A stretch of DNA of 21,010 nt, from the IMG/VR virus record IMGVR_UViG_3300008267_002127, positions 1 through 21,010 of that record; one strand, written 5' to 3'. The notes beneath the pieces were generated by a model. That model saw only the letters and a list, made by a program, of their open reading frames with translations, was not told where the DNA came from and did no database searches. This DNA is from a virus. Positions 5,309 to 9,861 of the stretch are shown one piece after another (the first letter of the stretch is position 1; the number at the start of each line of letters is the position of its first letter). The position numbers and the translations under genes were made by a program.

Positions 5309-5980
5309 ATGAAGTACATGACTGCTAAAGAGGAGGATATACTAGCATCTCAAACTTTAATCAAACAAGGTGTAGTGATAGACAAACTAATACAGTCTTT
5401 AATTGTAACTCCATTTGATTATAACGAACTATTAACCGTAGATAAGAATGCCATCTTTATAGCAGCTAGAGTGCTAGCTTATGGAGCTGACTATGAGATA
5501 GAAATTACTTGTCCAGCTTGTGGTGAAAAATCTACTAAGCATGTGGATTTGCAATCTTTTGAAAATAAAGAAATTAATTGGAATGCTTTTACAAAGGGTA
5601 GTTCTACATTCAACTTCACACTACCAGCAGCAGGTAAAAATAAATTAACCTTAAAATTACTTACTCATGGAGATGAAAGAGCTATTGAAGAGGAACTAAA
5701 GTCTCTTAAAAAGTTTACAAAAATAACAGGTGTAGATCCAGAACTAACAACAAGACTAAAACACTTGATTGCTGCAGTAGACGATAACTCAGATAAAAAC
5801 TATATCAGTAAATTTGTAGATTCCATGCTGTCAGTAAACTCTTTAGCATTACGTAAATACTTGAAAGAAGTAACACCTGATATTGACACTACATTTGAAT
5901 TCACTTGTCCACATTGTGGTCATGAGCAAGATAAAATGGCATTACCTATCAACGTAGGATTTTTTTGGCCTAGCCTCTAG
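5309..5980 (+). CDS. T4-type baseplate/tail-assembly protein, main part (gp26-like, zinc ribbon)
   Basis: Residues 1-35 (MKYMTAKEEDILASQTLIK onward, VIDKLIQSLIV) are the conserved core of the T4 baseplate-protein family. Two CPxC knuckles, C68/C71 and C200/C203, look like a split zinc ribbon. The frame is open upstream to 5297, and the ATG at 5309 is probably an internal Met of a longer gene whose N-terminal part is at 5095-5307. Its place between tube and tape measure is where tail-assembly chaperones sit in many tailed phages. It ends in GFFWPSL at TAG, next to a T7 run where a +1 shift would enter the following ORF. Confidence 0.78.
   Translation: MKYMTAKEEDILASQTLIKQGVVIDKLIQSLIVTPFDYNELLTVDKNAIFIAARVLAYGADYEIEITCPACGEKSTKHVDLQSFENKEINWNAFTKGSSTFNFTLPAAGKNKLTLKLLTHGDERAIEEELKSLKKFTKITGVDPELTTRLKHLIAAVDDNSDKNYISKFVDSMLSVNSLALRKYLKEVTPDIDTTFEFTCPHCGHEQDKMALPINVGFFWPSL
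5960..5966 (+). promoter_or_regulatory. Candidate +1 ribosomal frameshift site (T7 run)
   Basis: Zero-frame codons read GGA TTT TTT TGG CCT AGC CTC TAG. A Phe tRNA on TTT can move forward one base and re-pair perfectly. The +1 frame then reads GGC CTA GCC TCT AGT CAT AGG GGC ATG and continues without a stop into the 60-residue ORF at 5991. The arrangement resembles tail-chaperone recoding (lambda G/GT, P2 E/E'), though those use -1 shifts. The assignment is inference. Confidence 0.45.
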
Positions 5981-5990
5981 TCATAGGGGC

Positions 5991-6173
5991 ATGTTGCAGG
6001 ATGAGATATTTGATCTCATGTATTATGGAAAGATGGGCTTTTCGTATTGGGATTTATGGAACTTGCCTACTCACATAAGAAGATATTTCTATAGAAAATT
6101 AGCTGATACCAAGAAAAAAGAGCATGAGGCTGAAAAAGAAGCCTATGATAAAGCTAAATCAGGAAAAAAATAA
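5991..6173 (+). CDS. Short tail-assembly ORF, possibly a frameshift extension of the upstream gene
   Basis: The product begins MLQDEIFDLMYYGKMGFSYWDLWNLP, then THIRRYFYRKLAD, and ends in a Lys/Glu-rich helical tail. Short proteins of this pattern commonly follow the T4-type baseplate gene in related phages, as far as I recall. The ATG at 5991 lies 10 nt after the upstream TAG, with no Shine-Dalgarno sequence. The frame is open upstream to the T7 run, so it may be made independently, as a +1 fusion, or both. It lies upstream of the tape measure, consistent with a chaperone role. No catalytic motif is seen. Confidence 0.65.
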   Translation: MLQDEIFDLMYYGKMGFSYWDLWNLPTHIRRYFYRKLADTKKKEHEAEKEAYDKAKSGKK

Positions 6174-6197
6174 AAAATGGAGCTTTTGCAGTTTACA

Positions 6198-6218
6198 GAC
6201 TATTTATAGGAAATAGTC
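6198..6218 (+). promoter_or_regulatory. Inverted repeat containing TATTTATA before the first leader-peptide gene
   Basis: A perfect 8-bp inverted repeat GACTATTT (6198-6205) / AAATAGTC (6211-6218) with a 5-nt spacer holds TATTTATA at 6201-6208. It ends 8 nt before the ATG at 6227. It could be a promoter/operator in DNA or a hairpin near the start in mRNA; the sequence does not decide which. Confidence 0.4.
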
Positions 6219-6226
6219 TTAAAAAA

Positions 6227-6574
6227 ATGAAAACAACAGAATTAAGAAAACTAATTAGAGAAGAAATTAGAAAGGTGATCAAAGAAGAAGATTCTTTTGG
6301 AGACGACATAGCAAAACAAATACAAGTAGAACGCTTAGCACAACAGCGCAAGTTTATTGCTTGGGCCAAAGCCACAGCTGCAAAAAAGAATATTAAAAGC
6401 TTGAGTTTCCAAGGAGATGCTATGGTGACTGTTTCATTAAGTAAGCTTCAGAGGAAGAATATATTAACAAAAGAGCTTGTAGATAAGTGGAAAGCCGCTG
6501 CAGAAGGTTCAATGGAAAATGATTTATATCAAGGATTGTCAGTATTGCTTACTAGATATAAAATTTTAGCTTAA
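6227..6574 (+). CDS. Small protein with shared N-terminal leader, copy 1 (candidate internal/packaged protein)
   Basis: The first 20 residues (MKTTELRKLIREEIRKVIKE) align without gaps to the N-termini of the genes at 6592 and 7083; after residue 20 the three proteins are unrelated. The leader is an amphipathic basic/acidic helix ending I-K-E|E. T4 prohead protease (gp21) cuts after [L/I]-x-E and removes similar N-terminal capsid-targeting peptides from internal proteins. The 95-residue remainder is Lys-rich and helical (AQQRKFIAWAKATAAKKN) with no known enzyme motif. The start follows seven A residues and the TATTTATA dyad. Internal-protein function is inference; a leader-mediated binding role is an alternative. 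Confidence 0.65.
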   Translation: MKTTELRKLIREEIRKVIKEEDSFGDDIAKQIQVERLAQQRKFIAWAKATAAKKNIKSLSFQGDAMVTVSLSKLQRKNILTKELVDKWKAAAEGSMENDLYQGLSVLLTRYKILA

Positions 6575-6591
6575 TTAAACAATCAAACACA

Positions 6592-6948
6592 ATGACAAAG
6601 TCAGAATTTAAAAAATTAATCAAAGAAGAAATTAAAAAAACTCTAAATGAAGCTAAAACATTTCCAATTGGGTTAGAAGAAATCCTTACTATGGACGATG
6701 ACCTTATAATTGTAATAGGCAATTCATCAGCTGATTTAATTGGATACAAACCAGAACCTGATCAATTAAAAAAACTTGATGATATAATGCGTAAGTATGA
6801 CTTTGTCCCTTATAAAAAACCAGTCGGAGGAATGTTCACTGCAGGTAAGATAAAATACAGACTTCTTGGAGGTGGTACCACTTACATGAGTCATTTGCTA
6901 GATATATATAAACAAGTTAAAGCTTTAAAATTAAGTCATAGTTACTAA
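6592..6948 (+). CDS. Small protein with shared N-terminal leader, copy 2 (candidate internal/packaged protein)
   Basis: The leader MTKSEFKKLIKEEIKKTLNE is followed by A, giving L-N-E|A, the form closest to the classical T4 gp21 cleavage site of the three. The 98-residue remainder differs from its neighbours. It has a hydrophobic strand DDLIIVIGNSSADLIG, a charged segment PEPDQLKKLDDIMRKYDF, and a Gly-rich GGMFTAGKIKYRLLGGG. No family is recognised. It lies 17 nt after the preceding gene, probably in the same transcript, and ends just before a perfect 10-bp hairpin. Confidence 0.65.
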   Translation: MTKSEFKKLIKEEIKKTLNEAKTFPIGLEEILTMDDDLIIVIGNSSADLIGYKPEPDQLKKLDDIMRKYDFVPYKKPVGGMFTAGKIKYRLLGGGTTYMSHLLDIYKQVKALKLSHSY

Positions 6949-6957
6949 TAAATAATG

Positions 6958-6984
6958 ATGCCTCGAACTAATAATTCGAGGCAT
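6958..6984 (+). other. Perfect 10-bp hairpin between leader-peptide genes
   Basis: ATGCCTCGAA (6958-6967) / TTCGAGGCAT (6975-6984) with a 7-nt loop. No T run follows on the + strand, so it is not a standard intrinsic terminator. It may be an mRNA-stabilising 3' hairpin, a factor-assisted terminator or a protein-binding dyad. Confidence 0.55.
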
Positions 6985-7023
6985 TCAACTAAATATAAAC
7001 AACATCAATCTTTCAACAAAGAT

Positions 7024-7050
7024 AAGGCCAGTAGAAATACTGGCTTTTTT
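7024..7050 (+). terminator. Rho-independent terminator before the third leader-peptide gene
   Basis: Stem GCCAGTA (7027-7033) / TACTGGC (7038-7044) with a GAAA tetraloop, followed by six T residues; flanking A-T pairs extend the stem. It separates the first two leader-peptide genes from the third. Confidence 0.85.
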
Positions 7051-7068
7051 ATTTATAAACTATTTATA
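7050..7068 (+). promoter_or_regulatory. Two tandem TATTTATA motifs (late-promoter candidate)
   Basis: TATTTATA occurs at 7050-7057 and again at 7061-7068, right after a terminator and 14 nt before the ATG at 7083. The same octamer precedes the sheath, baseplate and first leader-peptide genes. Its promoter role is inferred from position only; AT-rich background is a caveat. Confidence 0.4.
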
Positions 7069-7082
7069 TCAAAGCTATCTCC

Positions 7083-7391
7083 ATGAAGAAGTCAGAATTG
7101 CATAAAATTATTAGAGAGGAAATACAAAATCACATGATAGAGGAGGGTATTGTGAACTGGATGTTAGATAAAGCAGCTACATTTGTTAAAAACCATTTTA
7201 ACCACGTAGCCGACTATCAGTATGCTAGACTGATAGCATCACCTGATTTTAGATCACTACACAAAAAATTTAATATGAGTGAAAAGGACTTTTTAGCAAA
7301 AGCCACAAGTCTAATAAAACAAAACCCTAAAAAGTTTGCAGATATATTAGCTTATGATGCATCAAAATCACGATATGCAAAATTTTTCTAA
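7083..7391 (+). CDS. Small protein with shared N-terminal leader, copy 3 (candidate internal/packaged protein)
   Basis: The leader MKKSELHKIIREEIQNHMIE matches the two upstream genes at M1, E5, K8, I10, E12, E13, I14 and E20. Possible cleavage sites are M-I-E|E or I-E-E|G. The remainder (82 residues) is basic and aromatic, rich in His, Phe and Tyr (TFVKNHFNHVADYQYARL, ending SKSRYAKFF). It has its own upstream terminator and TATTTATA pair, so it looks like an independently expressed cassette just before the tape measure, whose ATG lies 6 nt after this stop. No family is recognised. Confidence 0.65.
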   Translation: MKKSELHKIIREEIQNHMIEEGIVNWMLDKAATFVKNHFNHVADYQYARLIASPDFRSLHKKFNMSEKDFLAKATSLIKQNPKKFADILAYDASKSRYAKFF

Positions 7392-7397
7392 TGTTAG

Positions 7398-8417
7398 ATG
7401 GCTGGTAACAAACTAAACATAGATCCAAACGAATTTCAGAATCTAACTAAACAGATTGCTGATGCTATTGGTGCAGGGATGAAGCAAGGTGCAGAAAAAG
7501 GTAAAAAGGCTTTTGGAGGTGCTGATCTGCTGAGTGAGATGAAGTCTCAATTAGATGAGATAGGTAAAGCAGAAAAAGCTAACAACTTTGCCGCACAAGT
7601 TAAAAATAAAATGCTCAATGAGGGTATATCATCTCAACGTGCAGAAGTCCAAATACTAGCTCAACAGCAGATTGCAAAAAACAATCTAGTTAAAAAGGCG
7701 GCTGAAGAAAATATGCTTCAAATGGGTCTGCTTAAACTTCAAGCACAACAAGCGGGTAACACAGACCTTGTTAAACACTATGATAACAGAATTCAGAAAT
7801 CTCAAGAGTTTGTTAAAGGTATCGAAAACGAAAACAATGCAATCAAAGGTACTTCAAAACTAATAGATAAAAAACTCAAACAGCAAGACGAAGAAAAGGA
7901 GTCTATTAAAACACAGAATGAAATTAATGATAAGTTTAAGGAGATAAATAAAACATTAAAAGAGCGTATAGGTATAACAGAGGAAGTTATAGATCAATTA
8001 AGGACACCAGAAATGGCAAAAGCTGTTTTCTTTCAACAAATGGTTTCCAAAGGTGAACAAGTCCTTGAGACATTCGAAAAACTAGATCAGTCAGGATTAT
8101 CCCTTGGACAACGAGTAGATTACATGAGAAAGAGCTTTAGCATGATGTCGGTCATGGGACTATCAGATACTAAAGGTGTTTTAGATGGTATGGTGGAGAG
8201 CTATGGTACCTTAAACGCTATGACAGAGGATCAAGTGGATCATGTTGGTCACTTAGCAAAGCAGATGGGTGTGAGTGGTCAAGAAGCTTTTGGAATGGTT
8301 GATGCCTTTTCAAAAATGCCAGGTGAAACAATGGAAACTGCTGCAAACACAGCAGACTTTGTTAACAACTTAGCTAAAGCAAACGGCATTGCACCAGGAA
8401 AAACAAGCTGCTGTTGA
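7398..8417 (+). pseudogene. Tape-measure-like tail protein, N-terminal part (frame broken)
   Basis: The product is helical and Gln/Lys/Glu-rich, with long coiled-coil stretches around residues 50-190, then a more globular part (FFQQMVSKGEQVLETF..., MTEDQVDHVGHLAKQMGVSGQEAFGMV). It ends at NNLAKANGIAPGKTSCC before TGA. The following ORF, in the +1 frame, continues with the remainder of the same protein type. From memory of related phage proteins, about 25 residues normally lie between the APGK and AVEL segments, so a deletion plus frameshift is likely. Position after tube and assembly genes supports a tape-measure role, setting tail length and running inside the tube. Confidence 0.68.
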
Positions 8418-9861
8418 ATTACACAAAATGGGTGTTGAAATCGGGACAGCAAGTAAAATGGCTCAAGGCTTGCTAAATTTTGAAGATAGTATCAACAAGC
8501 AGATGGAAGCTTCTGTATTGCTTGGTAGAGAAATTAATTTAGATAAAGCAAGAGAGTTATCTCTAAATGGTGACTTGGAAGGTGCCACAAGAGAGGTAAT
8601 GAATAACATTGGAGGAGCTGCAGAGCTTGAAAAAATGAATGTTTTGCAGAAGCAAGCATTAGCTCAAGCAACAGGCATGACAGTTGAAGACTTAGCTAAG
8701 GCTGTTGATGCACAACAAGAAAAAAATAAATATACTGGAGAAGAAGCCTCTGCGTTAAATAGATCGTTAGGCTTTATCATGGAAATGGGTGGTGGTGTAA
8801 AAAATCTAATAAAAGATTATGGCATGGCAGCTCTGTCAGTATTACAAATGGTAGCTCAGCTAAGATTAGCAAAAGCTCTACAAGGAGACACTGCTAAGAG
8901 TGGTAAAGGATTCTTTTCAAAGATGTTTGGTGGTGGTGAAAAAATGCCAGAGACCAAAACACCAGAAGTCAAAACAGAGGCTTTAGATAAAGCAGATAAA
9001 ATGAAAGGCAAAGGTGGTGGTTTTATAGATTCCATGAAAGGATTAGCAGATGGTTTAAAACAAATGGCTGGAAGCAAGGTATTTCAAGGTATACTAAACA
9101 CAGCACTAGCAGGACCAGCACTAGTACTATCCTTATCAGCAATACCGTTTTTACTCTTCATGGGAATGGTTCCACTTAAACAACTTGGAAACAACTTTAT
9201 GAATCTAGCAATAGGTTTAGAGTTTATGGGTAGTGGCAAAGTTGCACTAGGTTCATTAAACACAATGTTATTTGCAGCAGCCGGTGTTATTGGATTAGCA
9301 GCAATACCTTTTATGCTTGCTATAGCACTTGGCGGTGCTTTAGTAGGTAGTGGATTAATGGGATTAGCTTCTGGCTTAACTGCAATGGGTAATCCAATGG
9401 TAGCACTTGGAGCAGGTATATTAGCTATGGTGTTATTATCAGCAGGAGCTTCCATGTTAATGTTTGGAGCAGGAGTTGGCATAGCAGCAGCAGGAATGTC
9501 GCTATTAGTAGCATCTTTAAAAGACGTACCATTTGAAAATTTATTAGCATTACCAGTAGCCTTTTTAGGTATTGGAGCAGGATTATATTTAATGGCAGCA
9601 GCAGGATTAGCAGCATTGCCTATATTAGGAGCATTAACAGCATTTGCATTAGTAGCACCAGCATTAACAGGTCTAGGTTCAGCTATTGGTGGAATGTTTG
9701 GAGGAGGTGGAGAAGGTGAGAAAGAAGATACATCAAAACTACTATTAGAAGAAATTAAAGGATTGAGAGCAGACTTAAATAAAGGTGGCATTATCAATAT
9801 GGATGGTAAAAAAGTTGGTGATGTAATAAGACTAGCGTTGAACACAGCAGGAACAAGATAA
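8389..9861 (+). pseudogene. Tape-measure-like tail protein, C-terminal part (frame broken)
   Basis: The frame is open from 8374; the TTG at 8389 is only the first possible start, and homologous sequence really begins near QAAVELHKMGVEIGTASKMAQGL. Next come a conserved helical segment (QMEASVLLGREINLDKARELSLNGDLEGA), a Gly/Lys linker, and a long hydrophobic region from about residue 225 to 435 rich in Ala, Leu and Gly with several membrane-helix-like stretches. Such hydrophobic segments are typical of tape-measure proteins and may form a channel in the host inner membrane on ejection. The C-terminus (EEIKGLRADLNKGGIINMDGK) is a short helix plus strand. Confidence 0.7.

Follow-up and report, generated by a model that had tools for sequence, protein, structure and literature searches.

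A 20-residue N-terminal leader shared by otherwise unrelated phage proteins, a probable capsid-targeting propeptide

Three small genes in the tail cluster of a viral sequence fragment begin with closely similar 20-residue peptides and have nothing in common beyond them, which raises the question of what such a leader does and how far it extends. The DNA analysed, here called the window, is the whole stretch of 21,010 nucleotides. On its + strand, gene 1 (6227–6574, 115 aa) opens with the leader MKTTELRKLIREEIRKVIKE (6227–6286), gene 2 (6592–6948, 118 aa) with MTKSEFKKLIKEEIKKTLNE (6592–6651) and gene 3 (7083–7391, 102 aa) with MKKSELHKIIREEIQNHMIEE (7083–7145). As had been claimed in an earlier, sequence-only reading, residues 1–20 of the three open reading frames (ORFs) form a gapless alignment in which M1, E5, K8, I10, E12, E13, I14 and E20 are identical. 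Seven three-way identities besides M1 were reached in none of 200,000 random draws, where the maximum was three. The divergence past the leader was also confirmed, BLASTP similarity being confined to residues 1–24, 1–21 and 1–20. Similarity extending further, which would indicate ordinary paralogy, was looked for among the three window proteins and none was found.

The same reading had described the genes as unrelated. This is correct as regards their bodies. Gene 3, however, is no stray small gene; it is a conserved, syntenic member of the tail cluster, located between the genes for the baseplate hub and the tape measure. Orthologues of gene 1, approximately 80% identical, were found at another locus, upstream of a gp32-like gene, with the leader retained (L409–L411). 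Relatives of the gene 2 body were sought and none was found. AlphaFold models of genes 1 and 3 were of low confidence (pLDDT 59 and 65, respectively) and contained only a leading helix, at residues 3–19 and 3–15, followed by a break. A Foldseek search of the gene 3 model against the PDB returned nothing, and a profile search of PDB sequences returned nothing convincing.

The search for the leader beyond the window went far past three genes. A degenerate DNA pattern covering residues 1–14 matched at least 119 stretches in IMG/VR and, when the relatives of the window were included, at least 162 leader proteins with non-redundant and otherwise unrelated bodies were recovered from viral contigs, with up to 12 per genome. 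The consensus is MKKSELRQIIREEISKVLNE, written out MKKSEL[RK][QK][IL]I[RK]EE[IV]xK[VA]LNE, with nothing in common afterwards. Residues 15–20 lay outside the selection, which was made on residues 1–14 only, and residues 16–20 nonetheless converge on K-V-L-N-E. Conservation ends at residue 21, with the KL information dropping from 1.82 bits at residue 20 to 0.36 at residue 21 and about 0.1 from residue 22 onward, and a MAFFT alignment of 123 full-length leader proteins had the same abrupt end. The 162 proteins thus have the arrangement expected of a capsid-targeting propeptide, a short N-terminal segment on unrelated mature parts. A different type of leader, marked by a conserved W (MDKKLWNRLLYKNSLVNE, MDKKRWYKLLGKELKESILTE and MDKSLWNKILKYNKLVTE), was seen beside the standard one in a single genome (L224–L225 in G001, bases 254230–265545).

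The leader is nearly confined to phages. Across 257 Gb of genomes from bacteria and archaea, the pattern occurred in only three contigs, all of them short, and the leader profile had no match in 681 kb of random viral contigs or in two shuffled genomes. The reversed pattern had no viral match in IMG/VR, and a random 14-mer was therefore chosen to draw control records. As expected with a query of 20 residues, a tblastn search of named phages with the consensus leader found nothing.

The end of the leader resembles the site cut by a phage prohead protease. E20 was present in 111 of the 162 leaders and L or I at residue 18 in 94 of these 111, so that 94/162 end exactly at residues 18–20 in the motif [L/I]-x-E, one that is somewhat likelier to arise by chance in a helix rich in L, I and E. 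In the leaders with E20, residue 21 favours A. Among the 51 leaders that lack E20, 40 had [L/I]xE within residues 16–34, compared with 34 of 260 control spans (13%), and 11 had no such motif in that interval. The motif stays while the length of the leader varies, which is more than a mere helix would require. Within the leader, I10-[R/K]-E12 is nearly invariant; being an I-x-E too, it may serve as a back-up cut site.

In the window, cuts are predicted after I18-K19-E20 in gene 1 and after L18-N19-E20, before A21, in gene 2. The proposal that residues 18–20 form such a site in all three genes failed for gene 3, where M-I-E does not fit the T4 rule. The fitting triplet there is I19-E20-E21, placing the predicted cut one residue later, and both E20 and E21 are invariant across the four gene 3 orthologues. 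Members of the wider gene 3 family, which many relatives have between the hub and the tape measure, differ at the N-terminus, some having the canonical leader and others different helices of approximately 20–28 residues. Despite this variation, [L/I]xE was retained in 17 of 19 members, compared with 1 of 36 control spans, which points to the site, and not the helix alone, as the selected feature. This also suggests that gene 3 encodes a conserved protein of the virion or of its assembly, not an accessory or exchangeable effector.

The leader proteins are small (median 107 aa including the leader) and nearly all are orphans. Pfam matches were obtained for only 3 of 123 leader proteins, and no Pfam, PHROG or PADLOC family recurred among them or was found for gene 3. 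The suggestion that the genes encode anti-defence effectors gained no support, as no body had a convincing match to a defence or counter-defence family.

In T4, N-terminal propeptides of 10–19 residues target internal proteins to the prohead core, and the protease gp21 cuts after L/I-X-E (PMC9026906). A protease of this type, S77 (Pfam PF03420, T4 gp21), was found in 15 of the 32 leader records. All 15 were among the 29 records of at least 30 kb, compared with 4 of 30 random records of that size (Fisher p 0.002), and the S78 protease was found in none of the 29. A Gp23-type capsid gene was visible in 12 leader records and S77 was present in all 12. Because no leader record had the Gp23 capsid gene without S77, its absence elsewhere is well explained by fragmentation. 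The window, as a 21-kb fragment, includes neither S77 nor a recognisable head gene, and the S77 gene of its phage would lie outside the fragment. A search for a gp21-like protease, as the sequence-only reading had proposed, was successful in the nearest relatives, G064 (122 kb) and G066. Both have hub proteins 68–69% identical to that of the window, and in both S77 belongs to a T4-like head cluster. The proteases of these two relatives group in a single clade with the proteases of the leader phages and with those of Flavobacterium phage immuto and Microcystis phage Mel-JY01, apart from the type found in the control records and phage C48C1 (100/100). Immuto, a cultured phage, encodes one protein with a leader (QQO92108.1) and another with a close variant (QQO92116.1), and Mel-JY01 has the head module in common. 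The protease clade also includes phages without the canonical leader, namely G064 and G066. In one leader-bearing record (G028, L467–L468, bases 31008–31436), the S77 frame spans three TGA codons, suggesting that TGA is recoded in this phage.

Other head genes of these phages carry similar sites. In 16 genomes, the capsid protein contains an ENQA[KR]QL-like sequence followed at about residue 55–63 by [VIL]xE, mostly with A, G or S next, and in most of these 16 genomes the presumed end of the capsid propeptide reads AKQL[VIL]xE before A, G or S. T4 gp23 loses 65 residues, and by analogy the capsid [VIL]xE would be a cut site. Most of the S77 proteases also have an [L/I]xE of their own near residue 20. 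The gene directly before S77, which has a body with the motif TTGxVxGYxTPxAF, occupies the place of T4 core genes 67/68; in G011 it opens with the standard leader, in G027 with a closely similar one and in immuto with a looser version. In G001, S77 is flanked on either side by leader genes, ten of which are no more than 10 kb away. Clustering of leader genes near S77 was strong in G001, G011 and G023 and borderline overall (257/5000 rotations). The location of 90/90 leader genes on the S77 strand was dropped as evidence, as the genomes are nearly one-stranded.

The leader genes of the window sit in the tail cluster, and this counts against a role in the capsid. The leader could instead be a docking helix for another late assembly, such as the tail, the baseplate or a tape-measure complex, with the terminal E a mere feature of the helix. 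In the window as in its relatives, leader genes lie between the genes for hub and tape measure, with gene 3 fixed there, and this would fit such an explanation. We nevertheless regard it as unlikely, given the crowding of leader genes around the prohead protease in the three genomes named above, the presence of the leader on a head-core gene and the persistence of [L/I]xE at the end of leaders of differing length.

The leader is probably a capsid-targeting propeptide, of the same kind as those of T4 but apparently with a different sequence. The idea that these proteins are packaged and processed, which the sequence-only reading had raised, is favoured by the protease-type site, the co-occurrence with S77 and Gp23, the matching end of the capsid propeptide and the leader on the head-core gene; the part of it that made gene 3 an effector was not sustained. 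In the infected cell, an amphipathic N-terminal helix (approximately residues 3–19) would attach the leader proteins to the prohead's internal core. The S77 protease would then cut after [L/I]-x-E, mostly at residue 20, at residue 21 in gene 3 and elsewhere in a minority, and the mature body would remain loose in the head during DNA packaging, from where it might be injected into the next host. With tag and body independent of each other, an unrelated protein could be recruited by acquiring the tag.

A variant of this, in which the leader binds the core and the protease leaves it uncut, so that the targeting signal is retained, is very unlikely. A precedent exists in DarB of phage P1, which has an N-terminal capsid signal within its first 30 residues and for which the parts of the source consulted describe no removal (PMC9024508), and the 11 leaders with neither E20 nor [L/I]xE at residues 16–34 would be consistent with it. 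The strongly conserved position of [L/I]xE and the co-occurrence with S77 argue against it.

As a capsid-targeting propeptide, the leader most resembles the capsid-targeting sequences (CTS) of T4 IPI–III and the propeptide of Alt, which are likewise short N-terminal segments on differing bodies, end in L/I-x-E and occur with S77 and Gp23. It differs from them in length, with 20 residues compared with the 10 that are sufficient for T4 IPIII, and apparently in sequence; a 10-residue CTS has been described for IPII and IPIII. There are up to 12 leader proteins per genome, compared with four in T4, and the leader proteins are known here from sequence alone. In T4 IPIII, targeting and processing rest on different residues (PMC9026906). 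Phages phiKZ and SPN3US also have many internal head proteins with propeptides that are removed by a gp21-like protease (gp175 and gp245, respectively), and in phiKZ there is more than one site per propeptide. However, the phiKZ motif is S/A-x-E (PMC9026906), whereas here it is L/I-x-E at the end of one common leader sequence. P1 DarB likewise has an N-terminal signal, which is sufficient to bring a foreign protein into the head, a role that the leader may share. The authors of the DarB study found no consensus among the Dar proteins (PMC9024508), whereas one consensus is found here on more than 100 proteins.

The text of the leader was not found in the relevant open-licence literature, nor was any link between the term 'capsid targeting sequence' and metagenomes found there. 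A review has already suggested that T4-like phages take in various proteins by such sequences. The kind of signal is therefore already known, and the tag, its clade and its scale appear to be new. The T4 targeting peptide is known from few internal proteins. If the reading as a capsid-targeting propeptide is true, the leader would be a new tag with which proteins could be packaged into the heads of phages, and the loading of cargo by a detachable address, here a consensus tag on more than 160 unrelated proteins, would be a general and much used strategy. It would also provide a sequence handle on the head-carried proteins of uncultured phages, nearly all of which are without a known family. 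We tentatively extend this to the possibility that, across the clade, a single standard and exchangeable tag resembling MKKSELRQIIREEISKVLNE, cut chiefly at E20 and perhaps also, as a back-up, at E12, brings a large and rapidly changing repertoire of orphan proteins into the head for delivery to the next host, in which case N-termini alone would be enough to identify the injected proteome.

Simple paralogy, or a DNA element common to these genes that has no protein function, such as a mobile start cassette carrying a promoter and spread by recombination, would account for the same 18 bases ahead of the start codons of two leader genes in L014 and for TATTTATA at about −30 in a third of leader genes, but is extremely improbable because similarity is absent past residue 20, the bodies do not form a single family and codons at most of the conserved leader positions are about as mixed as those of the bodies (somewhat less for E and L at 5 and 6 and for L at 18), placing the constraint mainly on the protein.

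The sequence TATTTATA preceded 21 of 103 leader genes and 146 of 1224 other genes (p 0.02), and precedes many structural genes in related phages. On the + strand of the window, it is a candidate late promoter at 6201–6208, 19–26 nt before the start of gene 1 and also inside an inverted repeat (6192–6224), and at 7061–7068, 15–22 nt before the start of gene 3, with a second copy at 7050–7057. In the window it is no more frequent than expected by chance, and its role as a common late promoter therefore stays a lead only. The interval between genes 2 and 3 contains a strong stem-loop (6958–6984) and, on the + strand, a hairpin with a T tail resembling an intrinsic terminator (7024–7047). The sequence ATATTTATA was found approximately 20–40 nt before many structural genes, including those for the sheath, tube, hub, tape measure and portal (L246–L249 in G014, L241–L245 in G005 and L454–L456 in G017), and is a candidate late promoter of this phage clade.

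Three other genes in the window have interrupted or shortened reading frames. The hub gene and the 60-aa ORF that follows it (5309–6173) are probably translated as one by way of a −1 frameshift, where seven T occur in a row at about 5960; in the relative L413, the downstream reading FFGLGSNYR..LQDQIFDLMYYGKMG is one ORF overlapping the hub gene. The tape-measure gene (7398–9861) is in two frames, split at 8389–8417, and a one-base indel is likely as the relatives L412–L414 have a single ORF of 861–901 aa. At 2149–2300, the sheath gene is approximately 50 N-terminal residues shorter than that of G066 and its reading starts just past TATTTATA with no start codon; a deletion or an error in the assembly may be the cause.
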